The position numbers were made by a program, and so were the translations under genes. This document shows, one piece after another, positions 24,810-42,672 of a stretch of 64,000 nucleotides of DNA. The notes below the pieces were generated by a model that was not told the DNA's origin, searched no databases, and worked only from the letters and a program-made list of their open reading frames with translations. Source of the stretch: Chelatococcus asaccharovorans (GTDB taxonomy: Bacteria; Pseudomonadota; Alphaproteobacteria; Rhizobiales; Beijerinckiaceae); contig NZ_QJJK01000010.1 in the NCBI RefSeq assembly GCF_003201475.1, positions 1 through 64,000 on the forward strand. The letters run 5' to 3'. Position 1 is the stretch's first letter, and each line of letters begins with the position of its first letter.

Positions 24810-25058
24810 ATGAGCCTCAATATCAAAGACCCCGAGGCGCATCGGCTGGCGCAGGCAATCGCCCGCGTTACCGGGGAAAGCATGACGCGCATCGTCACAG
24901 AAGCCCTGCGCGAGCGGTATGCACGGATCGAGCGCAGCAAGGGCAAGGCCAGCGTTCAGGAACTGTTGGCGATCGCCGACCGCGCCGCGGCGCATGTGAA
25001 GCGGCCCTATGTCGATCACGCGGATCTTCTCTATGATGAGAACGGTCTGCCGAAATGA
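24810..25058 (+). CDS. VapB-type antitoxin (type II toxin-antitoxin)
   Basis: An 82-residue protein. The N-terminal part, [40 protein letters not shown], is a ribbon-helix-helix-like 'PSK/VapB' DNA-binding domain, and the tail ([16 protein letters not shown]) is the usual toxin-neutralising peptide. I start at 24810 because the family begins exactly with this motif; the longer frame upstream is not homologous. It overlaps VapC by four bases (ATGA) and lies behind an inverted repeat. Confidence 0.88.
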
Positions 25059-25649: not shown

Positions 25650-25961
25650 CTAAGCGCCGCTGCGGCCACGGCAGCTTGCCATGTTGTGAACATGGACATG
25701 ATGGCCGGGCTCGATGACGGCTGTGGCCACGCCGATGCGCTGGCCGTATTTGCGGACGTCGCCACCGGTCTCGTGCCTGGACAGGGCGAGCTTGTGCCCC
25801 ATGGGGATGGGCGCGGCCAGACGCACCACCTGAATGGCATCGCCGACGCGCACCCGCGCCTCGCCTTCGATGTCGCGCAGGGCCACGGCGACGCTGTCGT
25901 GGGGGTGGATGGCCATGGCGTTCCATCCCGTCGCGCCGGGGGTGTTCTCGGATTCGGCCAT
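25650..25961 (-). CDS. UxaA/SuyA-type small subunit (SAF domain)
   Basis: A 103-residue SAF-domain protein. The motif HVHVHN at 88-93 and the segment IPMGHKLAL are typical of the N-terminal domain of altronate dehydratase (UxaA) and of the separate small subunits in split members of this family. One split member is sulfolactate sulfo-lyase SuyA. The start ATG shares one base with the stop of the large-subunit gene (TGATG), so the two are co-translated. It would form a complex with the protein encoded at 25961-27157, an iron- or other metal-dependent dehydratase or lyase on a hydroxyacid. Confidence 0.85.
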   Translation of the reverse strand: MAESENTPGATGWNAMAIHPHDSVAVALRDIEGEARVRVGDAIQVVRLAAPIPMGHKLALSRHETGGDVRKYGQRIGVATAVIEPGHHVHVHNMASCRGRSGA

Positions 25962-27157
25962 CAGAACGACCCTCCGAAACGCGCGAAGCACTCGTCGCCC
26001 TCGTCGAAGATCTCGCCCCATGTCGCGGTCCCACCCGCGACGTCGAGGAGATAGTCGAAAAGGCTGTCAGCCATGGCGGCAAGCGAGGCCTGGGCCAGAA
26101 ACAGCGGGCTCGCATCGAAATCGATCTGCGCCGCAAGGCGCTCTGTGGTGGCCGGATGGCCGCTGATCTTGATGGTCGGCGCCACATGGCTGCAGAAGCT
26201 GTTGCCCGGCCCGGTGGTGAACAGCATGATCTGCGCCCCGGCCGCGGCAAAGCCCGTCAGCGATTCCGGGGAGAAGCCCGGCCCGTCCATCACATGCAGG
26301 CCGGTGCAAGGCGGCGGCGCGGCGAAGGCCAGCACGGAGCGTATCGGCCGCTCGCCCGCCTTGGCGATCGCCCCCAGCGACTTCTCCTCGATGGAGGAGA
26401 GCCCGCCGCGCACGTTCTCATGGCCGGGATTGTTATAGAGGAGGTCGACGCCGAGCGCCGCGACAGCGCGCTCCCGTTTGGCGACGGCCTCGACGATGGC
26501 GGCGCCGACGACGCCGTCGATCGCCCGTTCCGCCAGCACATGCTCGGCGCCCAGCCACTCCAGCGTCTCGCCGATGACGGCGGTGCCGCCGCAATCGACG
26601 AGGCGGTCGGCGAGTGCCCCCGCGAGCGGGTTGCTCACCAGCCCCGACGTCGCATCGGAATGCCCGCATTCGATCCCGACGAACAGCTCGGCGACGGGGA
26701 CCGGGACGCGCCGTTGCGTGGACAGGAGACGCGCCAGCTCGCCGCCGCGCCGCACCGCCAGTGCAGTCAGCGCCAGCGCATCCTCATGGACATCGTCGAG
26801 GGTGGCGATGGCGACGGCCTTGCCGGAGCGGGCCGCAATCGCCTCCGCCACGGCGTCGGCACTCGGGCGGTCCACGCCAACGATCAGCGTCGCGCCGCTA
26901 TTGGGGTGGCTGCCGAGGCCGACGAGCTGCGCGAAATGCATGTCCTTGTCGGGGCCGAGCTGCCCACGGCCGTAAGGCGTCGCCGCGAGCTTGCAGCCGG
27001 GCAGCGCCTGGGCAATGCGCCGTGCCGTCGGCGTTATGAGGCCGTTAATGCCGAGGACGAGCAGCGTGTTGCGCACGCCCGCCCGGCCCACCGGCCTCAG
27101 GTAGCCGAGGAATTCCAGCTGTTGGCGGCTCGGCTTGTCGGGCGATATGCCCCCCAT
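25961..27157 (-). CDS. UxaA/SuyB-type large subunit (galactarate/altronate dehydratase family)
   Basis: A 398-residue protein matching the C-terminal catalytic part of UxaA/GarD. It starts EFLGYLRPVGRAGVRNTLLVL, contains GIECGHSDATSGLVSNP and ends with TIKISGHP followed by a helical tail. The ATG at 27157 has GGAGGA five bases ahead; an earlier ATG has none. In the fused enzyme UxaA both parts lie in one chain, so the split arrangement here is like SuyAB, which removes sulfite from sulfolactate, and like other split hydroxyacid dehydratases. With a sulfonate-type importer and a YihU-like dehydrogenase nearby, a sulfonate substrate deserves a test. A sugar acid is the alternative. Confidence 0.87.
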   Translation of the reverse strand: MGGISPDKPSRQQLEFLGYLRPVGRAGVRNTLLVLGINGLITPTARRIAQALPGCKLAATPYGRGQLGPDKDMHFAQLVGLGSHPNSGATLIVGVDRPSADAVAEAIAARSGKAVAIATLDDVHEDALALTALAVRRGGELARLLSTQRRVPVPVAELFVGIECGHSDATSGLVSNPLAGALADRLVDCGGTAVIGETLEWLGAEHVLAERAIDGVVGAAIVEAVAKRERAVAALGVDLLYNNPGHENVRGGLSSIEEKSLGAIAKAGERPIRSVLAFAAPPPCTGLHVMDGPGFSPESLTGFAAAGAQIMLFTTGPGNSFCSHVAPTIKISGHPATTERLAAQIDFDASPLFLAQASLAAMADSLFDYLLDVAGGTATWGEIFDEGDECFARFGGSF

Positions 27158-27218
27158 GGTGTCCTCCGTCGTGTTTGTGTTGGGCGCGGCGCCCATCGCC
27201 CCGCAGGGCTGGGCCGGC

Positions 27219-28079
27219 TCAGCCGGCGAAGGCGGGTTCGGCGAGCCCGCGCACGCCTGGCTCGAAGGCGAGCACGGCGCCTGCCAGCGGTTCGGCCGCC
27301 CGCTGGGCCGGGCTCAGGCCCTGGGTCGCCGTCGTGATGAACAACGTGCCGAGATCCGCGCCGCCAAAGCTGCAGGAGGTCGGATTGCTGACCGGCAGCG
27401 GCACGAGCCTGTCGAGGCGCCCATCCGGGGAAAATCGCGCCAGCAGGCCGGCACCGAACCGCGCATTCCAGATGAAGCCCTCGGCGTCGACGGTGGCGCC
27501 ATCGGGCTTGCCTGCCACCTCGCCTGCCGGCACGAAAGCACACCGCCGGTGGGACACCCCCTCCTCCGCACCGAGCTCGAGGCAATCGATGGCGCCAACG
27601 GCCGAATCGGCAATATAGGCGCGGTCGCCGCCGGGTGAGAAACAGAGCGCATTCGGGACAGTCAGGCCGTCGAGAACCCGCGTCAGGGCGAGATGGCGAT
27701 CGACCCTGTAGACGCTGCCGGTCCGCTCCCGGCCGAAGTCCCACATGGTGGTAAACCAGATATTGCCCTGGCGATCGCAGCGCGAATCGTTGATGCGATT
27801 GCCGGCGTGGCCCTCGTCGACCGGCAGCAGCGGTTCCAGGCGCCCCGTGGCGATCGTGAAGGCATGGAGGCCGGATTTGAGGCCGAGAATAAGCCCGCCC
27901 GCCTGGCGCAGCATCACGGCTCCAACCAGTTCCGGCAGCGGCCAGCGCGTCACCACGCCGCTCCCCGCCAGCCGACATAGCGACGGTGCGCGGATATCGA
28001 CCCAGTAAAGCGCCTCCTCCGCCACCGACCACACGGGCGACTCGCCCAGCGTGTCGATCGGCTCCGTCACCGCCCTCAC
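27219..28079 (-). CDS. SMP-30/gluconolactonase/LRE family lactonase
   Basis: A 286-residue six-bladed beta-propeller lactonase. Metal-ligand positions are visible: Glu in LGESPVWS, Asn-Asp in AGNRINDSRCD, Asn in TVPNALCFSPGG and Asp in AYIADS. These enzymes open sugar lactones to aldonic acids with a divalent metal. The start is a GTG overlapping the LacI regulator's stop (GTGA). With the UxaA-type genes downstream and dehydrogenases across the region, it fits the second step of an oxidative sugar pathway. Confidence 0.9.
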   Translation of the reverse strand: MRAVTEPIDTLGESPVWSVAEEALYWVDIRAPSLCRLAGSGVVTRWPLPELVGAVMLRQAGGLILGLKSGLHAFTIATGRLEPLLPVDEGHAGNRINDSRCDRQGNIWFTTMWDFGRERTGSVYRVDRHLALTRVLDGLTVPNALCFSPGGDRAYIADSAVGAIDCLELGAEEGVSHRRCAFVPAGEVAGKPDGATVDAEGFIWNARFGAGLLARFSPDGRLDRLVPLPVSNPTSCSFGGADLGTLFITTATQGLSPAQRAAEPLAGAVLAFEPGVRGLAEPAFAG

Positions 28080-29143
28080 GACGCGGTCTCCCGGCGCAGC
28101 GTGGCGGGCGTGGCGGTGGAGCCGCGCTTGATGATCTCGAAACCCATGTCCACGACCCGTTGCTCCACGTCCTTGCCGGCAATGCGATCGAGCAACATCG
28201 TGCCGGCCCGGCTGCCGATCTCGAAGCGCGGGATGCGCACCGTCGTCAGCGAGGGATTGAGGTTTTCGGCGATCTCGAGGCCCTCGAAGCCGGCGATGGC
28301 AAGATCATCCGGCACGCGGATGCCGAGCCGCTGCGCCTCGAACAACGCACCCGCCGCGATGAAGTCGCCCGTGCAGAACAGAGCATCCACATCCGGCCGC
28401 TCGCCAACCAGGACACGCAATTGCCGGCCGGCCGCTTTCAGATCCATCTCGAGCTCCGCGACGAAACGCGGATCCGTATCGAGGCCGAAATCGCGCACCG
28501 CGGCCCGATAGCCGGCCTGACGCTCGACCTGGCGTTCGTTGTCCTTGGTGAAGGTGGTGAACAGGGCCACGCGGCGATAGCCCTGCTCGGCGAGCATGCG
28601 TGTCACTTCATAAGCCGCGTCGAAGTTTGAAAAGCCGACCGCCATATCGATCGGATCCTCGGGCAGGCTCGCGATCTCGACCGTCGGGATAGCATTGTCG
28701 CGGAGCATCTTGCGCGTCTTGGCCGTGTGGGTCGCGCCCGTGAGATAGACGCCATCGACCCGGCGCGCGAGGAACTCCGCGACGATCGTCTCCTCGCCCT
28801 CGGGAATGAAATCACTGTTGCCGAGCAGGAGGTGGTAGCCGCGCGCCTTGAGGGCGCGGCTGAAGCCCTCGGTGAAATCGGCAGCGATGGAGTTGCGCAG
28901 GGTCGGGATCACGGCGCCGATGGTCATCGTCTGGTTGGACGACAGGTTGCTCGCGACGCGGTTCGGGATATAGCCCGTCGCGGCGATCGCCGCCGCGATC
29001 TTCTCGCGGGTTTCGATCGAGACGCGATGCGGGAACGACAGCGCGCGGGACACCGTCATGGGAGCCACACCCGCAAGCCGTGCGACATCGCGGATACCGG
29101 CCCGCTTGACCCGTCGCCCTGAAGATCCCGAGACGTTTTCCAT
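28076..29143 (-). CDS. LacI-family transcriptional regulator
   Basis: A 355-residue regulator. The N-terminal helix-turn-helix IRDVARLAGVAPMTVSRAL with the hinge helix (RVASNLSSNQT) is followed by a periplasmic-binding-protein-like effector domain (IGAVIPTLRNS through the C terminus). I start at the ATG at 29143 (GGAATGGGC spacing); 29149 is an alternative. It heads the leftward operon regulator, lactonase, UxaA pair and faces the ABC importer operon. The GntR-type palindrome at 29179-29194 lies just ahead, so it probably represses both operons until a pathway sugar acid binds. Confidence 0.92.
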   Translation of the reverse strand: MENVSGSSGRRVKRAGIRDVARLAGVAPMTVSRALSFPHRVSIETREKIAAAIAATGYIPNRVASNLSSNQTMTIGAVIPTLRNSIAADFTEGFSRALKARGYHLLLGNSDFIPEGEETIVAEFLARRVDGVYLTGATHTAKTRKMLRDNAIPTVEIASLPEDPIDMAVGFSNFDAAYEVTRMLAEQGYRRVALFTTFTKDNERQVERQAGYRAAVRDFGLDTDPRFVAELEMDLKAAGRQLRVLVGERPDVDALFCTGDFIAAGALFEAQRLGIRVPDDLAIAGFEGLEIAENLNPSLTTVRIPRFEIGSRAGTMLLDRIAGKDVEQRVVDMGFEIIKRGSTATPATLRRETAS

Positions 29144-29178
29144 GCCCATTCCACGCTCACGTCTCTTGACGCTATTGA

Positions 29179-29194
29179 ATGTTACCGGTACCAT
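29179..29194. promoter_or_regulatory. LacI/GntR-type operator in the divergent promoter region
   Basis: ATGTTACCGGTACCAT is a 16-base palindrome with a single mismatched pair and a central CCGG. It closely resembles the ATGTTACCGGTAACAT-type operators of GntR/IdnR and other LacI-family regulators. It sits 36 bases upstream of the LacI start and about 40 bases before the rightward importer gene, ideally placed to control both. Confidence 0.8.
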
Positions 29195-29234
29195 CAAAGG
29201 CAATTCAAGAAAAATCGTTTGGGAGGGGCCTTTT

Positions 29235-30107
29235 TTGGCGGCTCAGCAAGACAACGGCCTGACCGTTCAGCCGGCGAGAACCGCCGCGCAGCCGGGCGCG
29301 GCTACGCCGGGTTGGCCGACATCGGCAGACCAGCGCATCTGGACGGCGCTCGGTGCCGTCTTCATCTATCTGCGCTCCATGGCGGTATTTCTCGTCATCT
29401 GGCACCTCGGCTCGCGCTGGGTCGGCAATGCGATCCTCCTGCCCTCACCCATCGACAGCGCGGAGGCGCTGGTCGAGTTGTTCGCCGACGGCGAAATCTT
29501 CGACAACGTGACGGCGAGCCTGTCGCGCCTCGGCGTCAGCTTCGGGCTGGCGATCGTCCTCGGGGTCTCGCTCGGCTTCGCCATGGGCATGAATCGCACG
29601 ATCTACGCCATGGTCGATCCGATGGTCGAGCTGCTGCGGCCGATCTCGGGCATCGCCTGGATCCCCCTCGGCATGTTCATCCTCGGCGTGGGCGAGGCCC
29701 TGCCGACGGCGATCATGTTCTACGGGGCCTTTTTCCCGATCGTCATCAACACGGTGGTCGGGGTGCAGGCGGTCAATCCCGGCCTCGTCCAGGCGGCGCG
29801 GGTGCTCGGCGTCAGCCAGCGCGCCATCGTACGCCATGTCATCTGGCCGGCAGCGCTTCCCAATATCCTGGTCGGTGCGCGCCTTGGTGCCGGGGCGGGC
29901 TGGATGGCGATGGTCGCCGCCGAGCTGATCGGCGCGCCGTCGGGCCTCGGCTTCGCCATCGAGTGGTACCGCGAGCTCCTGATGACGCCGAAGGTCCTCG
30001 CCTTTGTCTTCATCATCGGGCTGCTCGGCTATCTCCTCGATCGGCTGCTGCGCGGCCTGCAGCGCAGGCTCACGCCGTGGGCGCAAGCCGGCGGAGGCCT
30101 CACATGA
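29235..30107 (+). CDS. Sulfonate/nitrate/taurine-type ABC importer permease 1
   Basis: A 290-residue permease of the SsuC/TauC group. It has six membrane segments and the loop QAARVLGVSQRAIVRHVIWPAALPNI. I start at the TTG at 29235. GGGAGGGG lies six bases upstream, and the next ATG is more than 50 codons in, inside the first membrane segment. Earlier ATGs lie within or before the operator, beyond the regulatory region. It is the first gene of the importer operon controlled by the LacI operator and overlaps the second permease (ATGA). Confidence 0.88.
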   Translation: MAAQQDNGLTVQPARTAAQPGAATPGWPTSADQRIWTALGAVFIYLRSMAVFLVIWHLGSRWVGNAILLPSPIDSAEALVELFADGEIFDNVTASLSRLGVSFGLAIVLGVSLGFAMGMNRTIYAMVDPMVELLRPISGIAWIPLGMFILGVGEALPTAIMFYGAFFPIVINTVVGVQAVNPGLVQAARVLGVSQRAIVRHVIWPAALPNILVGARLGAGAGWMAMVAAELIGAPSGLGFAIEWYRELLMTPKVLAFVFIIGLLGYLLDRLLRGLQRRLTPWAQAGGGLT

Positions 30108-30874
30108 GCCTTCACCTGCGCCTCCGGCCGTTCATCCTGCCGCTCCTGCTGCTCGCCCTCTGGCAGATCGCCGCGATGGCCTATGCGCAGACCAGCCGCA
30201 TGCCCGTTCCCGGCGACGTCCTGACCATGGGCTGGACGCTCGTGTCGAGCGGCGAACTGCCGCTGGCCCTGCTGCAGAGCCTGAAGCGGGTGCTGCTCGG
30301 CTTTGCCTGCGCCGCCTCGCTCGCTCTCGTCGTCGGGACGGCGATGGCCGCGTTCGAGCCCATCGGCCGCAACCTCGATCCGATCGTCGAGAGCTTCCGG
30401 CCGATCGCCCCGATCGCGCTCCTGCCGCTGGCGATCCTCTGGTTCGGCACCGGCACGCCCGCCGCGGCGTTCATCGTCGGCTACGCCGCGTTCTTCCCGA
30501 TGCTGGTCAATACCATCCACGGCGTGCGCAGCATCGACCAAGGCGTCATTCGCGCGGCGCGCACGCTGGGTGTCAGCCGCTTCACCATCCTGCGCACCGT
30601 GGTCCTGCCGGGCGCCTTGCCGAACCTCTTTGTCGGGGCGCGCCTGGCGCTCGGCGTCGCCTGGACGTCGATCATCGCCGCCGAACTCGCCGTCGGCGCC
30701 AAGGCGGGCGGCGGCGGGTCGGGCGGCATCGGCCAGATGATGTTCGTGTTCTACGCCTACAGCGTCGACCTGTCGGGGATCATCGTCTGCATGATCGGCG
30801 TCGGCCTCGTTGCCCTGATCATCGACCGCGGCGTCCGCGCCCTCGAATTCTGGATGCTTCCATGGAAACGCTAG
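30104..30874 (+). CDS. Sulfonate/nitrate/taurine-type ABC importer permease 2
   Basis: A 256-residue permease of the same SsuC/TauC group as its neighbour. The loop IRAARTLGVSRFTILRTVVLPGALPNL is clear. Two different permease genes in tandem suggest a heterodimeric channel, whereas SsuC-type systems usually use a homodimer. The ATG overlaps the first permease stop, and the gene overlaps the ATPase start by 13 bases. It lies in the inner membrane. Confidence 0.9.
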   Translation: MSLHLRLRPFILPLLLLALWQIAAMAYAQTSRMPVPGDVLTMGWTLVSSGELPLALLQSLKRVLLGFACAASLALVVGTAMAAFEPIGRNLDPIVESFRPIAPIALLPLAILWFGTGTPAAAFIVGYAAFFPMLVNTIHGVRSIDQGVIRAARTLGVSRFTILRTVVLPGALPNLFVGARLALGVAWTSIIAAELAVGAKAGGGGSGGIGQMMFVFYAYSVDLSGIIVCMIGVGLVALIIDRGVRALEFWMLPWKR

Positions 30875-31695
30875 AAAAAATGACGCCCAAGATCTGTCTC
30901 GGCGGCATCACAAAAGAATATATCGCGCCGCGCACCGGGCAACGCACGCTGGCGATCGCGGATGTGTCGCTGGATGTCTTCCAGGGCGAGTTCCTGTGCA
31001 TCGTCGGCCCGTCCGGCTGCGGCAAGAGTACCATCCTCAACATGATCGCCGGCCTGGCGCGCCCCTCCCGCGGCGAACTGGTGATGGACGGCAAGCCCAT
31101 CCGCGATCCCGGCGCCGAGCGTGGCGTGGTGTTCCAGGATTACGCCCTGTTTCCCTGGAAGACCGTGCGCGAGAACATCGAGTTCGGTCCGCGCTATCGC
31201 ACCGCCGGGCCGTTGTCGGCGAGCGAGCGTGACCGGATCGTGCGCCACTACATCGATCTCGTGTCCCTGACCGGCGCCGAAAACAAGTATCCGCACGAAC
31301 TGTCGGGCGGCATGCGGCAGCGCTGCGCCTTCGCCCGGGCGCTCGCCAACGAGCCCGAGGTCCTGCTCATGGACGAGCCCTTCGCGGCGCTCGACGCGCA
31401 GACGCGCCTCATCCTGCAGGAAGAGCTTCTCAGGATCTGGGGCGAAGAATTGCCGCGCGCCGCGCGCAAGACCGTCGTGTTCATTACCCACGGCATCGAC
31501 GAGGCCGTGTACCTGGCGGACCGGGTGGCGGTGATGAGCAACAATCCCGGGCATATCAAGACGATCATGACCGTGGATCTGCCGCGCCCGCGACGCGAGA
31601 GCCTGCGCGCGACAGCCGAATTCCAGAAGCTCGCCGACGCGATCTGGCAACTCATCCGGCATGAGGCCTACGAGGCCACCATCGACCGGCACTGA
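30862..31695 (+). CDS. Sulfonate/nitrate/taurine-type ABC importer ATPase
   Basis: A 277-residue ATPase of the SsuB/TauB group. It shows Walker A GPSGCGKST, Q-loop VVFQDYALFPWKTVREN (the FPW form is typical of this group), signature LSGGMRQR, Walker B LLMDEPFAALDAQTR and switch FITHGIDEA. I take the ATG at 30862 that overlaps the permease end; an ATG at 30880 is possible. It energises the two permeases and the binding protein downstream. Confidence 0.93.
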   Translation: METLEKMTPKICLGGITKEYIAPRTGQRTLAIADVSLDVFQGEFLCIVGPSGCGKSTILNMIAGLARPSRGELVMDGKPIRDPGAERGVVFQDYALFPWKTVRENIEFGPRYRTAGPLSASERDRIVRHYIDLVSLTGAENKYPHELSGGMRQRCAFARALANEPEVLLMDEPFAALDAQTRLILQEELLRIWGEELPRAARKTVVFITHGIDEAVYLADRVAVMSNNPGHIKTIMTVDLPRPRRESLRATAEFQKLADAIWQLIRHEAYEATIDRH

Positions 31696-31759
31696 ATGGA
31701 CAACAAGCACCGCACCAATGCGGTTCATGGGAGGAAGGTTCATGGGAGGAACAGGAACA

Positions 31760-32983
31760 ATGAAGAACAGCCATTTCACGCGACGGCAGCTTATTGCCGC
31801 CGCCGGCGCCGCAGGCGTCGCCACGCTGGCCGCGCCGCGCATCGCGCGCGCGCAGGATGCGACCATCTCGGTCGGTCGCCAGCCCTGGGCGGCCGGCAAC
31901 TCGCCGATCACGCAACACATGATCGACAACAAGCTGTTCGAGAAGAAAGCGAAGGAACTCGGCTACCAGCTCACGGTCGACTGGCGTGATTACCCATCGG
32001 CGCAGCCCATGGTCGAGGCTTTCGTCAGCAACAATCTCGACCTCGGCATGTGGGGCAATACGCCGATCATCCGCGGGCTCGCGGCCAAGCAGCCCTGGAG
32101 CATCCTCAATGTCGGCGAGGGTCACTTCCGCTTCGTGGTCGCGACCCGGGCCGATTCCGGGATCCGCAACATCCAGGACCTCAAGGGCAAGACCATCGGC
32201 GCCCTGCTGGGTGGCGACCCCTACAACGCCTTCTCGCAGATCATCCTGGCCGAACTCGGCTCGGGCAATCCGCGCGATTTCGACATCAAGATGATCAACA
32301 CGCCGACCCAGGCGCAGGCGGCCACCATCCCGCGCGGCATGGATGCCGCCGTGCTGATCTATCCGGCCTTCCTCAAGGCACAGAAGGAAGCCGGCACGGT
32401 CGGCATCGTCAACTCGTTCGGCTACACCGAGGACCACTACAAGGGGCCGGCCGGCGAGGGCGCGGGGCACCTGCTGGAATCCGTCAAGAAGTCGGCATTC
32501 TATCCCGACGGCTACTATCTGCATCGCTCGTTCTGGATGGCGCGCGACAGCCTGCTCTCGCAGAATCCCAAGCTGGCGATCGCCTTCATGGTGGCGCAGC
32601 AGGAAGCCGTCACCGCCCTTAAGGCCATGACCACCGGCGCCATCTCCGACAGCGTGCAGAAGTATTGGGGGCTGCCCGCCGAGCTCGGCGCCAAGGTCGT
32701 CGAGGACGAGGTGGTGTTCCGGCGCGGCTGGATCTGGCCGACCCAGGGCGACATCGGCGCGATCGTCGAGACGTCGAAATTCATGGTCGAGGGCAAGCTC
32801 ATCCCGGCGCCGCTGGACTGGAAACTGGTGCTCGAGAACGTGGCGAAATCCGCCCCCCTGATGCACCAGGCCTACGAGATGAGCGGATCGAAGCCCCCGG
32901 AGAGCGCCTTCACGGCCAGTGATGCCGCCGATGTCCGCGGCCTCCCGACCTGGGACTACAAGCGCTGGACAGTCAAGAACTGA
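31760..32983 (+). CDS. ABC importer substrate-binding protein, aliphatic-sulfonate/NMT1-like, Tat-exported
   Basis: A 407-residue binding protein. The N terminus MKNSHFTRRQLIAAAG contains a twin-arginine motif and is followed by a hydrophobic stretch and ARAQD cleavage region, so it is probably Tat-exported. The mature part has VGRQPWAAGNSPITQHMID and EAFVSNNLDLGMWGNTP, the pattern of SsuA/NMT1-like binders. GGAGGA is nine bases before the ATG. The family includes sulfonate, taurine, nitrate and thiamine-precursor binders, so the ligand is open; an anionic small molecule is the best general expectation. Confidence 0.9.
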   Translation: MKNSHFTRRQLIAAAGAAGVATLAAPRIARAQDATISVGRQPWAAGNSPITQHMIDNKLFEKKAKELGYQLTVDWRDYPSAQPMVEAFVSNNLDLGMWGNTPIIRGLAAKQPWSILNVGEGHFRFVVATRADSGIRNIQDLKGKTIGALLGGDPYNAFSQIILAELGSGNPRDFDIKMINTPTQAQAATIPRGMDAAVLIYPAFLKAQKEAGTVGIVNSFGYTEDHYKGPAGEGAGHLLESVKKSAFYPDGYYLHRSFWMARDSLLSQNPKLAIAFMVAQQEAVTALKAMTTGAISDSVQKYWGLPAELGAKVVEDEVVFRRGWIWPTQGDIGAIVETSKFMVEGKLIPAPLDWKLVLENVAKSAPLMHQAYEMSGSKPPESAFTASDAADVRGLPTWDYKRWTVKN

Positions 32984-33015
32984 GCATCGGCCTGTTGCCG
33001 AAGAGGAATGCACGC

Positions 33016-33918
33016 ATGGACACGATAGGGTTTCTGGGGCTCGGCACGATGGGCGGCCCGATGGCGCGCAACGTTCTGCGCAAGGGCTACAGCGTCAAGG
33101 GGTTCGATCTCAACCGCGCGGCGGTCGAGGCCCATGTGGCTGCCGGCGGCCAGGCCGCCAGTTCCCTCGGCGATCTCGCCGCAGGGAGCGACGTCGTCAT
33201 CACCATGCTGCCCGACGGCCCGGACGTCGAGCGTGCGGTCCTCGGCGAGGGCGGGCTCATCCACGCCATGCAGGCGGGATCGGTCCTGATCGACATGAGC
33301 ACGATCGACCCGGCGGTCACCCGCCGGGTCGGCGCGGCCCTCGCCGAGAAGGGCATCCTGATGGTCGACAGCCCGGTGGGCAAGACGGTTGATCACGCCA
33401 TCGCCGGGACCTTGACACTGATGGTCGGCGGCGATGCGGCGACGATCGAACGCGTCCGCCCCGTGCTCATGTGCATGGGAGCCGACCTCTTCCATTGCGG
33501 CGGGCTCGGCATGGGTGAGGCGCTGAAGCTGACGAACAACTTCCTCGCCGCCACGATCCTGTCGGCCACGACGGAAGCGCTGGTCATGGGCAAGAAGGCC
33601 GGCCTGTCGCTGGAGCTCATGACCGACGTGATGCGCACGACGATGGCCTGGAACAACCAGTTTGCCATCGCCCTGCCGAAGAAGGGACTGGCCGGGGATT
33701 TCACGGCCGGTTTCATGGTGAAGCTCGGCGAGAAGGACCAGCGCCTCGCCGTCGCCATGGGCAAGGCGCTCGGCGTCGAGACGCCGGTCGGAGCCGCGGC
33801 CTATGCCACATTGACCGAAGCCCGGAATGCAGGCTTCGCCGATCTCGACGTGACGGCGGTGCTGCGGCTGCGCGAGGAACAGGCCGGCGTGACGGTGCGC
33901 CTCAAGCACGATGCATGA
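33016..33918 (+). CDS. Beta-hydroxyacid dehydrogenase family oxidoreductase, YihU (sulfolactaldehyde reductase)-like
   Basis: A 300-residue NAD(P)-dependent dehydrogenase of the 3-hydroxyisobutyrate dehydrogenase family. The Rossmann motif GLGTMGGPM begins at residue 8 and the catalytic Lys171 lies in EALKLTNNF with Asn174. The substrate loop reads DSPVGKTVDHAIAGTL (118-133). From memory this is close to the DVPVGRTSANAITGTL loop of E. coli YihU and unlike the usual DAPVSGG of HIBADH or GarR relatives. The residue number of the catalytic Lys also agrees with YihU, but Arg123 of YihU is Lys123 here. It follows the importer operon and reduces or oxidises a three- or four-carbon acid semialdehyde. 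Confidence 0.82.
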   Translation: MDTIGFLGLGTMGGPMARNVLRKGYSVKGFDLNRAAVEAHVAAGGQAASSLGDLAAGSDVVITMLPDGPDVERAVLGEGGLIHAMQAGSVLIDMSTIDPAVTRRVGAALAEKGILMVDSPVGKTVDHAIAGTLTLMVGGDAATIERVRPVLMCMGADLFHCGGLGMGEALKLTNNFLAATILSATTEALVMGKKAGLSLELMTDVMRTTMAWNNQFAIALPKKGLAGDFTAGFMVKLGEKDQRLAVAMGKALGVETPVGAAAYATLTEARNAGFADLDVTAVLRLREEQAGVTVRLKHDA

Positions 33919-34984
33919 GATGACCCGCCAAGAATTTCCCTCCCCGTTTCCCTCCCCGTCTCCCTCACCGCCCCCCGCCTCGCCCCTGCCGACGCGCCGG
34001 GTCGGCCAGACCGCGCTCGACGTCTCCGTGCTCGGGTTCGGCGCCGCGCCGCTCGGCGGCATCTATCGCAGCATCTCGAATGCCGAGGCGGAGGCGACGG
34101 TGGCGACCGCGCTCGCCAGCGGCCTGCGCTATTTCGATGTGGCGCCGTTCTACGGGCTTGGCCTCGCCGAGCATCGCCTGGGCAGCGCGTTGCGCGAGCG
34201 CCGCGACGAATGCGTCGTCTCGACCAAGGTCGGCCGCTTGCTGCGTCCCCTGAAGGCCGGTGCGCGGCACGCCACCATGTATGTCGACCCGCTGCCGTTC
34301 GAAGTCGCCTTCGACTACAGCTATGACGGCGTGATGCGCTCGATCGAGGACAGCCAGCAGCGGACGGGCTTTGCCACCTTCGACATGGTCTTCCTCCATG
34401 ACGTCAACCGGCGCTGGCTCGGCGACGATGTCGAGCGTCGTTTCGACGAAGCCATGAACGGCGGCTATCGCGCGCTCGATGAGCTGCGCCGCGCAGGGCA
34501 GGTCAAGGCGATCGGCGTCGGCGTCAATGACAGCGAGATGCTCGTGCGCTTCGCCCGCGCCGGCCGGTTCGACGGCTTCATGCTGGCCGGGCGCTACACG
34601 CTCCTGGAACAGACGCCGCTCGATGCGCTGTTTCCCCTGTGCGAGCAGGAGGGCGTCTCGATCATCGCGGCGGCGCCGTTCAACTCGGGCATCCTGGCAA
34701 CAGGGGCGCGCGCGGGGGCGAAGTATTTCTACACCGATGCACCCGCGGACATCGTCGCGCGCACGCGCCGCATCGAGGCTGTCTGCGAGACGCATGGGGT
34801 GCCGCTCATCGCGGCCGCCCTGCAGTTCGCCTTGCGGCATCCCGTCGTCGCCAGCGTCGCGACGGGGTTCAGTTCGCCGGCCGAGGTCGCGACCGGCGCC
34901 GCGATGATGGCTGTCGCCATTCCCCCGGCCTTCTGGGACGAACTCAAGGCGTCCGGGCTGATCCGGAGCGACGCGCCGACGTGA
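33911..34984 (+). CDS. Aldo/keto reductase, D-threo-aldose 1-dehydrogenase (L-fucose dehydrogenase)-like
   Basis: A 357-residue aldo/keto reductase with the full tetrad Asp76, Tyr81, Lys106 and His163. The opening RRVGQTALDVSVLGFGAAPLGG and VGRLLRP match the group that oxidises the C1 of L-fucose, L-galactose or pyridoxal-type substrates to lactones. The first 27 residues are an unusual run of Ser, Pro and Phe dipeptides (SPFPSPSPSPPP) encoded by a C/T-rich microrepeat, not part of the fold. The gene overlaps the preceding one by eight bases. An ATG three codons later is an alternative start. It would supply the lactone for the SMP-30 lactonases nearby. Confidence 0.86.
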   Translation: MHEMTRQEFPSPFPSPSPSPPPASPLPTRRVGQTALDVSVLGFGAAPLGGIYRSISNAEAEATVATALASGLRYFDVAPFYGLGLAEHRLGSALRERRDECVVSTKVGRLLRPLKAGARHATMYVDPLPFEVAFDYSYDGVMRSIEDSQQRTGFATFDMVFLHDVNRRWLGDDVERRFDEAMNGGYRALDELRRAGQVKAIGVGVNDSEMLVRFARAGRFDGFMLAGRYTLLEQTPLDALFPLCEQEGVSIIAAAPFNSGILATGARAGAKYFYTDAPADIVARTRRIEAVCETHGVPLIAAALQFALRHPVVASVATGFSSPAEVATGAAMMAVAIPPAFWDELKASGLIRSDAPT

Positions 34985-35002: not shown

Positions 35003-36709
35003 TCAGGGGCTCGCCTCGCGGAAGCGTCGCGGCGGCTGGCCGCGCGTTCCGGTGCGCACGGCGATGAGTTGTCCGGAGGCCGGCGCCTCGGCCGACAGCC
35101 CAGCCGGCAGGCGGATCCAGGTCGAGGTTACATAGAGCGTCGCCATGTCTTCGCCGCCGAAGGCGCAATTGGTCGGCATGGGGACGGGCAGCACCACCTC
35201 CTCCACCAGCCGCCCCGACGGATCGTAGCGGCAGACGCGCCAGCCGCCGAGGCACGCGACCCAGAGATGATCCTCCGCGTCGACGGTGATGCCGTTCGGA
35301 TTGCCGGGAATATCCGCCGCGGCCAGGAACACGCGGCGGTTGGCGATGGTGCCGGACAGGGCGTCAAAGTCGAAGGCTAGAACGACATTGTTCGCCGTGT
35401 CGGCGAAATAGAGCCGTTGCCCCGCGGTGTCGAAGGCGACATTCTTCGCCATCCCGACCTTGTCGATGTGGCGGTGCACGGCGAGATCGGCACCGACCGC
35501 ATAGAGGCTGCCGCGGCCGATCTCGTGATTGATGGCCATGGTGCCGACCCAGAGCCGGCCCCTGGGATCAACGCCCACCGTGTTGCAGCGGTTGTCTGGA
35601 CGGTCGGCCTCGGGATCGACGAGGCGGCGCTCCACCCCGGTCTCCGGATCGAGCAGAAAGAGACCATGCTGGCCCGCGGCCACCAGCCGATCCTGCTCGT
35701 CGAACGCGATGCCCGCCGTCAGCCGTGGCAGTTCCACGCGGCCCGCCTCGCGCCGGGCGGGATCCCACCAGCGCAACGCCGGCGCCAGCACATCGACCCA
35801 GTAGAGACGCCGGCGGCGGGGGTTCCACACCGGGTTCTCGCCCACGAAGTCGCGTCCCGTCGCCAGGACCTCGACCGCCACGCCGACTGGCTCCTGCGGG
35901 CGCGGTAGGACCGACCGGGTGGCATAGCCCATGCCGATATGGCCCGAGGCCCGGTGGGCGGCTTCCACCAGCGCCCGGCCGGCGTCGTGCAGGTCTTCCG
36001 CCGGGATCTGATCGGTCTCGAACAGGCAGGCGAGCGCACCGATGGGATAACCTGTCTCGTCCAGGATAGCCGAGGCCGCGCCGGCGCGGCCGGACACCGG
36101 CTCGCGCGTCATCACCGCATAGCCGAGCGCCTTGGCGACGCCGAGATCGGCGCGCAGACGGTCCATCGCCGGCTTTTCGACAATCGTCGGGGAGAGATCC
36201 TGCAGAAACGCCTCGCAGCGCTCCTTGGGCAGGGCAGCCAGCATGCTTCGCCCGGCGGCGCTCTCGATGGCCCGTGAGCGTGGCCAGAAGCGCACCAGCC
36301 GCCCGTACGACGGATCGGCATCCTCGAAGTCGAGGACGAAGACATCCTCGTTGTCGAGCACCATGACGCAGATGGTGCGCTGCAGGCGCCGCGCGACACG
36401 CGCCAGTTCGGGCTTGGCCGCCCTGATGATGCTGTTCTGGTCGAGGCTGCGACGCGAGAGTTCCAGCACCCGCATGCCGACGTGATAGGTGCGGGTGCGC
36501 GGATCGTGGCGCACCATGCGGCGGCTCACCAACGCCGCCAGCAGGCGATGCAGGGACGCCCGCGGGATGCCGATCGATTTCTCGAGATCGCGGAAACGCG
36601 GTGGCTGCGGCGCCGTGCCGATGGCGAGCAGGACGTCAAGCCCCCGCAACAGCGCCTGCGCGCCCGGCACATCGGTGTCCTGATCGACCTCAGCAGTTGG
36701 TTCGCTCAC
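35003..36709 (-). CDS. IclR-family regulator fused to an SMP-30 lactonase domain
   Basis: A 568-residue two-part protein. Residues about 15-85 form an IclR winged helix (ALLRGLDVLLAIG through IPRASLHRLLAAL). About 95-260 form the IclR effector domain (SAAGRSMLAALP, EPVSGRAGAASAIL). From about 285 to 560 there is an SMP-30/gluconolactonase propeller, with GENPVWNPRRRRLYWVD, DNRCNTVGVDPRGRLWVGTM, NPNGITVDAEDHLWVA and TNCAFGGEDMATLYVTS. There is no frameshift or internal start that would separate them. It is divergent from the enolase operon across a 106-base gap, so it probably regulates that operon while also binding or hydrolysing the lactone. It converges with the AKR gene at an 18-base gap. 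Confidence 0.88.
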   Translation of the reverse strand: MSEPTAEVDQDTDVPGAQALLRGLDVLLAIGTAPQPPRFRDLEKSIGIPRASLHRLLAALVSRRMVRHDPRTRTYHVGMRVLELSRRSLDQNSIIRAAKPELARVARRLQRTICVMVLDNEDVFVLDFEDADPSYGRLVRFWPRSRAIESAAGRSMLAALPKERCEAFLQDLSPTIVEKPAMDRLRADLGVAKALGYAVMTREPVSGRAGAASAILDETGYPIGALACLFETDQIPAEDLHDAGRALVEAAHRASGHIGMGYATRSVLPRPQEPVGVAVEVLATGRDFVGENPVWNPRRRRLYWVDVLAPALRWWDPARREAGRVELPRLTAGIAFDEQDRLVAAGQHGLFLLDPETGVERRLVDPEADRPDNRCNTVGVDPRGRLWVGTMAINHEIGRGSLYAVGADLAVHRHIDKVGMAKNVAFDTAGQRLYFADTANNVVLAFDFDALSGTIANRRVFLAAADIPGNPNGITVDAEDHLWVACLGGWRVCRYDPSGRLVEEVVLPVPMPTNCAFGGEDMATLYVTSTWIRLPAGLSAEAPASGQLIAVRTGTRGQPPRRFREASP

Positions 36710-36815: not shown

Positions 36816-38006
36816 ATGCAGGCCCCGCAGTCGCTGACCGTGCGTTCCGTGTCGGCCTTCGTCATTGCCGTCTCGCCGAAAACGAACTGGATCGTCGTCG
36901 AACTTGCGCTCGCCGACGGCCCGTCGGGCTGGGGGGAAGCGACGCTGGCGGGCGCCGAGGAAGCCGTTCTCGCGGAGATCGGCCACGCGCAGACCCTGCT
37001 GGCCGGTGTCGCGTTCTCCGGTCCCGCCGAGGTGACCGGCCGGCTGCGCATGACCCACGCCTCGCAGGCTCGCATGATCGTCATGCGCGCGGTCGAGCAG
37101 GCCGTTCTCGATGCCCTCGCCCGCCGTGCCGGCGTGCCCCTGGCGGCCTTTCTCGGGGGTCCCGAGCGCCAAGCCGTTCCCGTCTACGCCAATATCAACC
37201 GGGGTATCGTCGATCGCACGCCCGCCGGCTTCGCGGCACGGGCCCGCGAGGTCGTCACGGTCGAGGGTTACAAGGCGGTCAAGATCGCGCCGTTCGACGG
37301 CCTCGACTGGAAGCGCTGCGACCACGCCAGCGGGGCACGGCTGCTCGCAGACGGCATCGCGCGCATCGTGGCGGTGCGCGAGGCCGTCGGCCCGGGGGTC
37401 GCCCTGCTGGTCGACTGCCACTCGCGCCTGTCGCCGGTGATGGCGCGCACCGCCCTGCGGGCCCTGGAGAGCGTCGCACTGTTCTGGTTCGAGGAGCCGC
37501 TGGCCGAGGATGCCTTTGACGACCACACCGGCCGGGCCCTGCGCAGCTTTGCCAACGATCGCGGCATCCGTATCGCCGGCGGCGAGCATCTCGCCGGCAT
37601 GACCGAAGCGCGCGACTTCCTGGCGCGTGGCACCTGCGATGCCATCCTGCCCGATCTCCGCTGGACCGGTTTGCGCTCCGGGCTGTCGATCCTGGAACTG
37701 GCCGCTTGCTCCGGCGTCGAGGTCAGCCTGCACAACCCGGTGGGGCCGGTGCTCGACCGCATCAGCGTACAGATGGCAGCCGCCCTGCCCTCCTTCCTCA
37801 TCCTGGAGCGACAGGTGCGCGAAAGCCCGCTGTTCGACGAGATCCGTGGCGGGCCGCAGACACTCGCCGACGGTGCCATCCCCCTCGAAGCGGCGCCTGG
37901 CTTCGGCGCGCCGCCCGACCGCGCCGTCCTGGAGCGCTGTGCCGCCCAGGGCTTCCAACGCCGGGCCAGTCTCGCCGGGGTCGCCGGCGCGGGAGGTGAC
38001 GCATGA
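36816..38006 (+). CDS. Enolase-superfamily sugar-acid dehydratase (mandelate racemase-like)
   Basis: A 396-residue enolase-superfamily protein. Metal ligands are Asp200 (LLVDCHS), Glu226 (WFEEPL) and Glu257 (AGGEHL). The Asp280 (LPDLRW) and His306 (SLHNPVGP) pair forms the general acid/base dyad of the mandelate-racemase subgroup. Lys156 in AVKIA is in place, but the second Lys of the usual KxK is Ala158. Such enzymes dehydrate aldonic or aldaric acids to 2-keto-3-deoxy acids. GGAGGA lies ten bases before the ATG at 36816. It is first in the operon with an SDR and a dipeptide-type importer and overlaps the SDR by four bases. Confidence 0.9.
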   Translation: MQAPQSLTVRSVSAFVIAVSPKTNWIVVELALADGPSGWGEATLAGAEEAVLAEIGHAQTLLAGVAFSGPAEVTGRLRMTHASQARMIVMRAVEQAVLDALARRAGVPLAAFLGGPERQAVPVYANINRGIVDRTPAGFAARAREVVTVEGYKAVKIAPFDGLDWKRCDHASGARLLADGIARIVAVREAVGPGVALLVDCHSRLSPVMARTALRALESVALFWFEEPLAEDAFDDHTGRALRSFANDRGIRIAGGEHLAGMTEARDFLARGTCDAILPDLRWTGLRSGLSILELAACSGVEVSLHNPVGPVLDRISVQMAAALPSFLILERQVRESPLFDEIRGGPQTLADGAIPLEAAPGFGAPPDRAVLERCAAQGFQRRASLAGVAGAGGDA

Positions 38007-38866
38007 CGCTGTCGGTTCATCCGGCGCCGGTTGGCGCCAGCTTTGCGGCCGATCTCGCCGGCCGGCGGGTGTTCGTGACCGGTGCCAGCCGTGGCATCGC
38101 GGCCGCGATCGCCCGCGGCTTCGCCGGCTGCGGCGCGCGCGTGGCGCTGAACTACAGCGCCGATGCTGACCTTCACGCCGGCTTTGCCGAGGCGGCCGCA
38201 GCGCTGTCCGACGACATCAGCCGCATCGGCCCGCCTGCCGTTCTCCTCGAGGCCGATCTCACGCAACCCGACGCCGCGTCTCGCCTCGCCGCGGATGTTG
38301 TCGCCGCCTGGGGTGGCGTCGACATCGTCGTGCTCAGCGCCTCGATCCAGATCCACAAGGACTTTCTCGCGCAGACGCCGGCGGATATCGCCCTGCAGAT
38401 CCAGATCAACCTCATGTCGAATATCGCGATCCTGCAGGGGGTGATCCCCGTCATGCGTCGTGAACGCTGGGGGCGGATCATCACCATCGGCAGCGTGCAG
38501 GAAACGGCGCCCTCGGGCGAGATGCCGATCTATGCGATGACCAAGGGCGCGCAGGAGAACCTCGTGCGCAACCTCGCCCTGCAGAATGCACCGCATGGCA
38601 TCACCGTGAACAACATCGCGCCCGGCCTCGTGCAGACCGACCGCAATGCGTTCCGACGGCGGGATCCCTCAAGCTGGGAAGCGATCGCCGCCGCGGCCAA
38701 CCCGATGGGCCGGGCGGGCCAGCCCGAGGACATCGTCGGCGCGGCGCTGTTTCTCGCCTCGGATGCGGCGTCCTTCGTGACGGGGACCACCATCCAGGTC
38801 ACCGGAGGCGCCCATATCCCGTGGCGCGCCGCTACCGCACGCGGCATCCCCATGCCGACACCCTGA
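38003..38866 (+). CDS. Short-chain dehydrogenase/reductase
   Basis: A 287-residue classical SDR. The cofactor motif TGASRGIA is at 26-33 and the active site Tyr/Lys lies in YAMTK, with an upstream Ser in IGSVQE. A C-terminal VTGTTIQVTGGAHIPW completes the fold. GGGAGG precedes the ATG by about five bases and the start overlaps the enolase gene (ATGA). After a sugar-acid dehydratase, such an SDR often oxidises the 2-keto-3-deoxy acid at C4 or the starting sugar at C1. The choice here is open. Confidence 0.92.
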   Translation: MTLSVHPAPVGASFAADLAGRRVFVTGASRGIAAAIARGFAGCGARVALNYSADADLHAGFAEAAAALSDDISRIGPPAVLLEADLTQPDAASRLAADVVAAWGGVDIVVLSASIQIHKDFLAQTPADIALQIQINLMSNIAILQGVIPVMRRERWGRIITIGSVQETAPSGEMPIYAMTKGAQENLVRNLALQNAPHGITVNNIAPGLVQTDRNAFRRRDPSSWEAIAAAANPMGRAGQPEDIVGAALFLASDAASFVTGTTIQVTGGAHIPWRAATARGIPMPTP

Positions 38867-38966: not shown

Positions 38967-40727
38967 ATGATTACCCGCCGGACATTCAACGGCCTCGCCG
39001 TTTCCATGGCCGCCCTCGGCACTGCCGCGCCCTCGGCCGTCTTCGGCCAGTCGCCCGCCGCCGTGGCGCGCAACAAGACGCTGATCGTCGCGGTGCAGGC
39101 CGAGGCGCCCGTCTACCGCAACGTCGGGCAGGCCAATCCGTATTCAATCAACAACGAGGACTTCCGCGGCTCCATCATCAACATGTTCGAGCCGCTGTTC
39201 TACTACAACTCCAACAAGAACGAGGTTATCCCGTGGGTCGCCTCAGGGCTCGAGAACAATGAAGACTACTCCTCCTTCACGGTAAAGCTGCGCGATGGCG
39301 TCACCTGGAGCGACGGCAAGCCCTTCACCGCCGATGACGTCGTCTACACGCTCGAAATGCTGATGGCGAACGGCAAGGGCAAGCGCGACCTCACCCAGTC
39401 GTCGGGTGTCGCCGACGCGGTGAAGGCCGTCTCGAAGATTGATCCCCTGACGGTGAAGATCGATCTCACCAAGGGCGATCCGCGCTTTGCTTTCAAATAT
39501 CTGATCAACTACTTCGATATCGGCTTGCAGTGGCTGCCGGCCCACGTCTGGCGCGATGTGCCCGACCCGGCGGCGTTCTCCTTCTTTGACGTCGCCAAGG
39601 GCTGGCCGCTGACCACGGGCCCCTGGAAGGTGACGCGTTTCACCGATAACCAGATCTTCATGGACCGGCGGCCGGAATGGTGGGCGACCAAGGCCGGCCT
39701 TGCGACCATGCCGGCCATGGAGCGTGTCATCACCATTCCCGGCGGCACGCGGGACCGGATGGCCCAGCTCGTCGCCGCAAACCAGGTCGATATCGTCAAT
39801 GACATCCAGATCAGCGAGGTGATGAAGCAACTCGTCACCCAGAACCCGAAGATCACGACGTTTACCGGAAAAGACGCACCCTATGGTGCCAAGGACTGGT
39901 GGCCGACGTCGCTATACTTCAACCACAAGAATGAGAAATGGGCCGATCTCAACGTCCGCCGGGCATTGAACCACTATCTCGATCGCAAGCAGCTCATCGA
40001 CACCGCCTATGCCGGCGCCAGCGAGCCCAAATACGACCCCTACCCCGGCTTCGGCTCGTTGAAGCCCTATATCGATGCCATCCGGCGCATCGCCGACAAA
40101 TACGGCATCGGCCATTTCGACAAGGCCAAGGGCGACGAACTCATGCAGAAGGCCGGCTTCGTCAAGAACGACGCCGGCATCTGGGCCAAGGACGGCAAGC
40201 CCCTTTCGGCAGTCATCGAGGCGATCCCGGTTCTTAATGCCATCGGCCCGGTCGTCGCGCAGCAGCTCAAGAACGCAGGGATCGACGCGAGCTTCCGTTC
40301 CACGCCGGAAAGCCGCGCGATCATGCGCGACGGCAAGTACGACTTGTGCCTTTTTGGCCATCGCGGCTCTATCAGCGACCCTTATGCGACGCTTGAGAAC
40401 TACCATAGCCGCAACGCCCTGCCGGTGGGGCAGCCTATTCTCCTCCCGGCGCGCTGGTCGAATGCCGAGTACGACAGGATCGTCGACGAGGCGTCCAAGG
40501 TGCCGCCGAACGATCCGCGGCTCATGGACCTCGTCAAGGCGGCCATGGAGATCTGGATGCGCGAGGCCGTCGAGGCGCCGATCTCCGAATGGTATCACCG
40601 CGTGCCCATGAACCAGACCTATTGGACCGGCTGGCCGAGCGAGCAGGATCCCTACATGCAGCCGAGTTTCTGGTATACGTCGGGAAGCTTTGGCTATGTC
40701 ATGCCGAAGCTCAAGCCGGCATCCTGA
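38967..40727 (+). CDS. ABC importer substrate-binding protein, dipeptide/oligopeptide (family 5) type
   Basis: A 586-residue family 5 binding protein. The N terminus [17 protein letters not shown] carries a twin-arginine motif and a hydrophobic segment ending near FGQS. Typical internal segments are [27 protein letters not shown]-like text ([14 protein letters not shown]) and [24 protein letters not shown] precedes the ATG. Family 5 binders carry peptides but also oligosaccharides and opines. In this operon with a sugar-acid dehydratase and an SDR, a sugar oligomer or glycoside is plausible. Confidence 0.92.
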   Translation: [586 protein letters not shown]

Positions 40728-40755
40728 TCGTCTTCGCGAGAATTCGGAGGCTCTT

Positions 40756-41757: not shown

Positions 41758-41759
41758 CC

Positions 41760-42668: not shown

Positions 42669-42672
42669 CCCG

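Follow-up and report, generated by a model that had tools for sequence, protein, structure and literature searches.

A conserved LacI-controlled regulon with a split UxaA-family enzyme in Chelatococcus asaccharovorans, possibly for the oxidative breakdown of an anionic aldose

The window analysed here comprises the first 64 kb of a 311.5-kb contig (NZ_QJJK01000010.1) of Chelatococcus asaccharovorans, whose genome amounts to 7.25 Mb in 40 contigs. An initial annotation had described ten of its genes as a possible cluster for the catabolism of organosulfonates or sulfo-sugars, and profile searches found all ten at the places and in the families claimed (Table 1). Leftward from 29143 lie the genes for a LacI-family repressor, an SMP-30-type lactonase (SGL1) and the large and small subunits of a split UxaA-family enzyme (UxaL and UxaS, together UxaLS); rightward from 29235 lie those for the two permeases, the ATPase and the substrate-binding protein (SBP) of an ABC importer, a beta-hydroxyacid dehydrogenase (HIBADH) and an aldo-keto reductase (AKR). 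Judging from the gene spacing, each row probably constitutes one operon.

A single palindrome lies between the divergent LacI and Perm1 genes, which bears out the earlier proposal of one shared LacI operator. The perfect 18-bp form (AATGGTACCGGTACCATT) is found at the same place in Chelatococcus caeni and Candidatus Phyllobacterium onerii; the sequence departs from it at one base in two genomes of the host's genus and at two in the window, and both position and near-sequence are kept in four related loci. At up to two mismatches the motif has one match in the window, but 44 of 100 shuffled sequences also match; since presence alone is no better than chance, it is conservation that identifies the operator. 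By model score the regulator is nearest to the gluconate/idonate repressors GntR and IdnR, below both cut-offs, and repressors of this type presumably use a similar site. We conclude that the genes form one regulon, consisting of two divergent operons with a common conserved operator.

The unit does not end with the AKR gene, and the limits set initially (25650-34984) are too short. In C. caeni (L027) the order is enolase-superfamily dehydratase (hereafter enolase), AKR, HIBADH, SBP, ATPase, Perm2 and Perm1, with LacI, SGL, UxaL and UxaS on the opposite strand; because the enolase counterpart directly adjoins AKR there, the enolase gene of the window belongs to the unit as well. In the window this gene opens a second module with a short-chain dehydrogenase/reductase (SDR) and another ABC importer, which we take to be of the Opp type, and is preceded on the other strand by a gene for an IclR regulator fused to an SMP-30 lactonase domain. 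The two modules adjoin in two genomes of the host's genus (G002 and G003), and the second-module importer is absent from the 21-kb C. caeni stretch that carries the 11-gene unit. The fusion protein is kept at 86-87% in G002 and G003 and at 44% in Sulfitobacter; its domains suggest a regulator that possibly opens or senses its own lactone.

The unit is near-complete in four other genomes. UxaL matches were obtained in 7 of 289 genomes of the class at E 1e-60 and in 2 of 398 genomes of the phylum at E 1e-70, the host being included both times. Our sample of the UxaL clade comprises 14 loci, the window among them; five come from the host and its near kin and three from one further genus. A UxaS homologue is present in all 14 (counting the window and G288, which is split over two contigs), and a window-type enolase in ten, nine of them placed by tree and that of G288 by 41% identity over 61% only. 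HIBADH was found in nine loci, the NitT-type importer and AKR in eight each, and SMP-30 also in eight, two of them at 38-43%; these counts are lower bounds, because several loci are cut by contig or stretch ends. In P. onerii (L028) the large UxaA gene seems to hit an early stop and several neighbours are partial gene calls; the copy may be decaying, or the assembly flawed at this place. Beside UxaL-clade genes of two loci are encoded proteins of ~450 aa that look alike by eye (L034 5361-6482, cut by the contig end, and L035 1122-2474, adjoining a sulfatase); neither had a Pfam match, and the one of L035 matched no solved structure. A literature search, with most subscription papers outside its reach, found no described cluster of this make-up. 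The locus is a real, rare and conserved regulon.

Table 1. Features of the regulon and of the adjoining second module, in positions of the window.
Feature	Position	Strand	Basis and remarks
UxaS, small SAF-type subunit of split UxaA-family enzyme, 103 aa	25650..25961	-	Resembles altronate/galactarate dehydratase N-terminal domain structures
UxaL, large subunit, 398 aa	25961..27157	-	PF20629/PF04295; separate clade beside SuyB by trees, AU tests and residues
SGL1, SMP-30/gluconolactonase-type lactonase	27219..28079	-	PF08450, 245.9 bits
LacI-family repressor, GntR/IdnR-like, start uncertain	28076..29143	-	NCBIfam GntR 305.8 bits (cut-off 400), IdnR 272.3 (cut-off 500)
Operator palindrome AATGTTACCGGTACCATC	29178..29195	no strand	Between divergent LacI and Perm1 genes
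Perm1, NitT/TauT-type ABC permease, TTG start uncertain	29235..30107	+	PF00528; NCBIfam SaoP, TauC best, below cut-off
Perm2, second NitT/TauT-type permease	30104..30874	+	Pfam and NCBIfam profiles
ABC ATPase, NtrCD/TauB-like, start 30871 or 30880	30871..31695	+	NCBIfam ntrCD 259.6 bits (cut-off 291.8)
SBP, periplasmic binding protein, 407 aa, distant SsuA/NMT1 relative	31760..32983	+	TIGR01728, 77 bits (cut-off 163.5)
HIBADH, beta-hydroxyacid dehydrogenase, G-K-T at 122-124	33016..33918	+	NCBIfam NF012005, 272.2 bits (cut-off 348); alignment, tree
AKR, aldo-keto reductase	33911..34984	+	PF00248; nearest solved relatives L-galactose dehydrogenases (9w6y, E 4.3e-32)
IclR regulator fused to SMP-30 lactonase domain, second module	35003..36709	-	PF09339, PF01614, PF08450 in a single frame
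Enolase-superfamily dehydratase, DgoD-like residues, separate clade; joins both modules	36816..38006	+	PF13378/PF02746, tree, alignment
SDR dehydrogenase	38003..38866	+	PF13561; 54% to Sulfitobacter SDR
Second-module ABC importer: binding protein, two permeases, one long ATPase gene	38967..44607	+	48-63% identity to Sulfitobacter ABC genes

UxaL carries the UxaA/GarD superfamily domains and the conserved core residues; its identity is 34% with SuyB of Cupriavidus pinatubonensis, 28% with UxaA, 25% with GarD and 31% with a candidate D-idonate dehydratase from Paracoccus denitrificans. A tree of 38 proteins places 11 of window type in one clade (support 100/100) and 15 of SuyB type in another (100/100); the two meet, together with one Variovorax protein (VarL), at 92/98, and UxaA, GarD and the D-idonate dehydratase are placed elsewhere. 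Long branches (UxaA, GarD, Ponticoccus, Variovorax) make the deep joins of this tree unsure; L028, with its early stop in the frame extension, is absent from the UxaL trees and HalL2 from a later tree run. Eight groupings were then considered with the approximately unbiased (AU) test, of which one was already in the tree and seven were tested; since the tree had been inspected before the groupings were chosen, p-values of about 0.02-0.04 should be taken as indications only. Placement of UxaL inside the SuyB clade was rejected (p 0.001), as were groupings with a Priestia (p 0.007) and a Halarchaeum protein (p 0.014). The grouping with UxaA, GarD and the D-idonate dehydratase, named after the tree had been seen, was rejected at p 0.023, and that with a Ponticoccus protein from a rhamnose/fucose-like cluster weakly at p 0.041. 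A position as sister of SuyB (p 0.33) or with the Variovorax protein (p 0.50) is compatible with the test. The phylogeny that the initial annotation had named as its check thus leaves the pair outside both SuyB and the UxaA group: judged by sequence, UxaLS is a clade of its own, nearest to SuyB and VarL. Neither the UxaL clade nor that of the enolase has a characterised member among the proteins compared.

The alignment shows that the window clade keeps the dehydratase letter at columns where SuyB departs from it, such as 161, 171, 176, 208, 293, 308 and 314, shares the SuyB letter at six columns (62, 196, 239, 319, 335 and 366) and has letters of its own at many others. Several residues typical of SuyB are missing from UxaL, for instance F-P-T-G at 313-316, S293 and Y308 (window numbering). 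The pair had also been credited with the same layout as SuyAB; here, however, the large-subunit gene precedes the small one, whereas all five SuyAB-clade pairs examined are small-first, and small-large splits exist outside the SuyB clade too. We therefore discarded the split layout as a marker of sulfonate use.

These results bear on the strictest sulfo scheme, in which UxaLS would be a SuyAB-type sulfolyase and HIBADH a dehydrogenase for sulfolactaldehyde or 2,3-dihydroxypropane-1-sulfonate (DHPS) in a sulfo-sugar or C3-sulfonate route. The join with SuyB and VarL, the acceptable sister position and the six shared columns speak for it, whereas the rejected placement inside SuyB, the missing SuyB-typical residues and the reversed gene order speak against it, as do queries for SlcC, ComC and aldehyde dehydrogenase, which had no match in the window. 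The host has a SuyAB pair elsewhere (L072 10254-13849, contig C2), with identities of 56% and 68% to Cupriavidus; after the pair come genes of the hydroxyacid dehydrogenase and Ldh types, which share 61% identity with those of the sulfofucose-type cluster of Sinorhizobium mexicanum. The host probably uses sulfolactate independently of the window genes, and with this SuyAB-SlcC-ComC-type set a second sulfolyase is not needed. We consider the scheme unlikely, although the tree and model results lower the chance that the pair is SuyAB more than the chance that it works like SuyAB.

In the case of HIBADH, the best NCBIfam model is that for sulfolactaldehyde 3-reductase, a point in favour of the same scheme, with a score below the cut-off; the best solved relative is 2-hydroxymethylglutarate dehydrogenase, level with sulfolactaldehyde reductase at 202 bits each. 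Nine window-type proteins form a clade (95/95) apart from GarR, GlxR and LtnD. Together with a 47% host paralogue, this clade adjoins YihU and three proteins of other clusters, the whole being supported at 97/95, which fell to 90/94 in a second tree with a Rhodococcus row added and the long rows L076, L079, L080 and L081 removed. Of the two outcomes foreseen for this phylogeny, separation from GarR was therefore obtained, and the branch does adjoin that of YihU, which, however, also contains the three other-cluster proteins. Two of these come from clusters with CoA-transferase and acyl-CoA dehydrogenase genes, which could argue for a pathway that degrades a beta-hydroxy or branched acid of non-sugar nature, AKR and the SMP-30 protein then acting on another aldehyde and lactone; importers of the NitT/TauT type likewise serve many non-sugar anions. 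Yet an AKR, a lactonase, a DgoD-like enolase and a UxaA-family enzyme together are typical of sugar acids and the conserved C. caeni unit is without CoA-type genes, and we regard such a pathway as very unlikely.

As had been observed initially, HIBADH has VGKT at positions 121-124 where YihU has VGRT. Lys123 is present in nine of nine clade members, and among the host's nine homologues only the window protein has G-K-T; GarR, GlxR and LtnD have S-G-G at this motif and the three YihU-side proteins G-R-L. Lys171, in which a further YihU-like sign had been seen, is Lys in all 26 aligned proteins and so not diagnostic. For Arg123, Asn174 and Ser178 of YihU, which we take to be its sulfonate-binding residues, HIBADH has Lys123, Asn174 and Ala178; with two of the three changed and the model score below cut-off, an identification as YihU was rejected. 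A distant HIBADH of Rhodococcus koreensis has G-K-T with the same spacing (by eye), and its plasmid genes (L104 7708-15193) comprise a SuyAB-clade pair, an aldehyde dehydrogenase, an MFS transporter, HIBADH and SlcC and ComC types. This is an independent case of the motif in what seems to be a C3-sulfonate context, and the cluster is a candidate DHPS/sulfolactaldehyde route; its combination of SuyAB, G-K-T dehydrogenase and aldehyde dehydrogenase is a further argument for the strict scheme. Its aldehyde dehydrogenase shares 44% identity with one that is encoded just past the Sinorhizobium sulfofucose-type genes. A scan of viral contigs with HIBADH returned no relative.

The importer consists, as originally described, of two different permeases, an ATPase and an SBP distantly related to SsuA/NMT1. 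All four are of the nitrate/taurine/sulfonate kind, none reaching a family cut-off, those of the sulfonate models included; the SBP has distant solved relatives only (best 3uif, E 2.2e-6). The NitT/TauT family carries mostly anions, many of them non-sugar, and is unusual for neutral sugars. The kind of importer and the G-K-T dehydrogenase together make an anionic substrate likely.

Aligned to E. coli DgoD, the enolase retains D-x-H, two Glu and a later His, which we take to have the same roles as in DgoD. Its clade (100/100, 13 rows) includes two Sulfitobacter proteins and the enolases beside UxaLS in other loci; the tree was built without pieces shorter than 280 aa, such as that of G288. In agreement with the initial reading, no sugar-acid aldolase was found with it: seven queries for aldolases of the DHDPS, HpcH, KDPGal and tagatose types had no match in the 64 kb, a positive control being at hand for five of them and none for DgoA and YihT. 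Eleven further queries (FAH hydrolases, aldehyde dehydrogenases, SlcC, ComC, sugar-acid kinases) also had no match in the 64 kb. Outside the window, these queries matched a hydroxyacid dehydrogenase in G027 and, in the flank of the C. caeni locus, an aldehyde dehydrogenase; PF03328 has 14 matches elsewhere in the host genome, none on this contig. An HMG-CoA-lyase-like gene (5209-6195) and a threonine-aldolase-like one (61497-62474), both named by eye, were set aside as not being sugar-acid aldolases.

Gene families met in one regulon, and their conservation, support the frame of an oxidative sugar route, and from these and the observed clades we infer the reactions, their order, the substrate and an aldolase encoded elsewhere. 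We propose, with a probability of about 0.42, that the products of this LacI-controlled regulon take up an anionic aldose and degrade it oxidatively, in an Entner-Doudoroff-like manner. The NitT/TauT-type importer would take up the sugar, AKR (or the SDR) would oxidise C1 to give the lactone, the SMP-30 protein would open it to the aldonate, and the DgoD-like enolase-superfamily enzyme would dehydrate the latter to a 2-keto-3-deoxy acid, to be cleaved by the aldolase encoded elsewhere. The G-K-T dehydrogenase could handle the resulting small anionic aldehyde or alcohol, and UxaLS may act on a 2-hydroxy acid, be it the aldonate or the small fragment, by eliminating an alpha-proton and a beta-leaving group. 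Within this proposal a terminal sulfate ester or a sulfonate is the likeliest anion; a sulfo-type substrate (sulfate or sulfonate) has about two chances in three. The Entner-Doudoroff-like scheme of the initial annotation is retained as a sensible frame, and a sulfo-sugar as a possible substrate; yet no sulfonate-specific family was found among the unit's genes, the host has its SuyAB-type set in another part of the genome, and the sulfofucose-type dehydratase and the enolase fall into separate groups.

The main rival, already named in the initial annotation and kept here as a tentative but serious possibility, is an ordinary sugar-acid route, in which an L-galacto-, L-fuco- or D-arabino-configured aldose or a uronate would be oxidised by AKR, the lactone opened by the SMP-30 protein, the acid dehydrated by UxaLS or the enolase, and HIBADH would act in a GarR-like step. 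The proximity of AKR to L-galactose dehydrogenases among solved structures, the GntR/IdnR-like LacI regulator and the sugar-acid dehydratase letters that UxaL retains where SuyB departs are in keeping with it, although NitT/TauT importers are unusual for neutral sugars. PMC6336799 describes a UxaA-superfamily D-arabinonate dehydratase, weak on D-altronate, L-fuconate and L-galactonate, and proposes a heteromeric (split) L-fuconate dehydratase from gene context, which also fits such a route. The groupings of UxaL rejected at p 0.023 and, weakly, at p 0.041 count against it, as does HIBADH, which lies apart from GarR and GlxR and is without S-G-G.

Sulfatase genes of relatives were considered with regard to the sulfo group. 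A plasmid island of Sulfitobacter mediterraneus (L045, L103) has parts of both window modules: enolase, SDR, the binding protein, two permeases and ATPase of the second-module ABC importer, a sulfatase and a DHDPS-type aldolase stand in a one-strand row, which a NitT-type importer and the IclR-lactonase fusion adjoin. Sulfatases with no signal peptide evident by eye are encoded in this island (two), in L035 (two) and in L036 (one). Three PF00884 matches were obtained in ~320 kb of 12 UxaL-clade loci, all within two loci; 80 (two below cut-off) were obtained in 13 genomes, or ~1.1 per Mb by hand arithmetic, in a count made without C. caeni and P. onerii. In G002 (C2:1624200-1625204) and G003 (C2:438039-439043) a sulfatase lies ~24 kb from UxaL, outside the loci examined; a host match of similar score sits on another contig, and none of the nine host sulfatases is on this one. 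Statistically, the sulfatase link is weak; the genes are a sign of sulfated sugars in certain relatives but not in the window. A long shot that would dispense with sulfatases is that UxaLS represents a third functional branch of the UxaA superfamily, with a sulfated 2-hydroxy acid as its substrate, from which sulfate or some other acid group would be expelled; a sulfate-ester sugar would thus be desulfated by beta-elimination after oxidative breakdown, with the G-K-T dehydrogenase acting on a small sulfated aldehyde.

Several observations weigh against the proposed breakdown of an anionic, possibly sulfo-type aldose. No sulfatase was found in the other 12 of the 14 UxaL-clade loci, the window included (ten by Pfam search, L027 and L028 by gene lists only). 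Between host and island sulfatases, identity does not exceed 34% over long alignments and reaches 39% over a stretch of 69 aa. In three loci of a single genus, adjoining enolase, UxaL and UxaS genes occur without the others. Aldolase queries match in one of the 14 loci, an HpcH type in G027 ~15 kb from UxaL. A positive residue at position 123 is no proof of a sulfo group, because Arg123 is also found, as G-R-L, in the three proteins of other contexts. The sulfofucose-type dehydratase of S. mexicanum (L109), recognised by its neighbours (HpcH aldolase, SMP-30, SDR, SuyAB, SlcC and ComC types) and apparently, from this context, the SfcF homologue named for this strain in PMC12421959, groups with DgoD at 100/99; the window enolase lies in another clade (100/100) and was rejected as a member of the SfcF group. 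Finally, the importer inside that sulfofucose-type cluster is of the carbohydrate type.

UxaL and enolase clades co-occur in ten of the 14 loci, which makes their joint function testable with few purified proteins. Should the substrate be sulfated or sulfonated, the organosulfur cycle would gain a new route of uptake and breakdown, whose importer differs in kind from the carbohydrate-type one inside the sulfofucose-type cluster; should it be a plain sugar acid, two orphan clades would be assigned and a SuyAB-like split pair would be no marker of sulfonate use. Elsewhere in the window, a VapB/VapC-like pair (named by eye; 24810-25441) lies beside the small UxaA gene, and PEP-hydrolase-like, UPF0261-like and ThuA-like genes with a carbohydrate-type ABC importer occupy 11406-17181, which we take, gene names included, to be another sugar-type cluster.

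Compared with SuyAB of C. pinatubonensis (L046, recognised by its hpsN/hpsO neighbours) and of the host (L072), UxaLS has the split UxaA-type subunits and superfamily core residues in common and SuyB as nearest large branch, but differs in clade, in several residues and in gene order, and is without SlcC or ComC matches nearby. With UxaA, GarD and the D-idonate dehydratase candidate it shares family (PF20629/PF04295) and conserved core, these being encoded by one gene and UxaLS by two. HIBADH and YihU lie in the same larger branch with G-[RK]-T, Lys171 and Asn174 in common; Lys123, Ala178 and the sub-threshold model score set HIBADH apart, and no yih genes were seen in the unit. According to PMC12421959, sulfofucose is degraded by an SDR, an SMP-30 protein, a dehydratase of PF13378/PF02746 and an HpcH aldolase, after which SuyAB is proposed to act; the same paper reports the enzyme of sulfolactaldehyde oxidation in Paracoccus wurundjeri as not known. 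The unit resembles this pathway in its dehydrogenase, SMP-30 lactonase, enolase-superfamily dehydratase and ABC importer families, lactonase and aldose dehydrogenase corresponding by family only, whereas the S. mexicanum cluster (L117) contains the HpcH aldolase, linked SuyAB and a dehydratase that groups with DgoD. Directly past its sulfofucose-type genes, the S. mexicanum plasmid (L117 15870-19911) carries a NitT-type importer and an aldehyde dehydrogenase. The Sulfitobacter island has no match to UxaLS or AKR and one to HIBADH of only 31% over 204 aa, and contains two sulfatases, two DHDPS-type aldolase genes and one aldehyde dehydrogenase; in common with the window it has the NitT-type importer (SBP 31%, permeases 41-44%, ATPase 52%), LacI (39%), the enolase (46%), the SDR (54%), the second-module ABC genes (48-63%) and the IclR-SGL fusion (44%).

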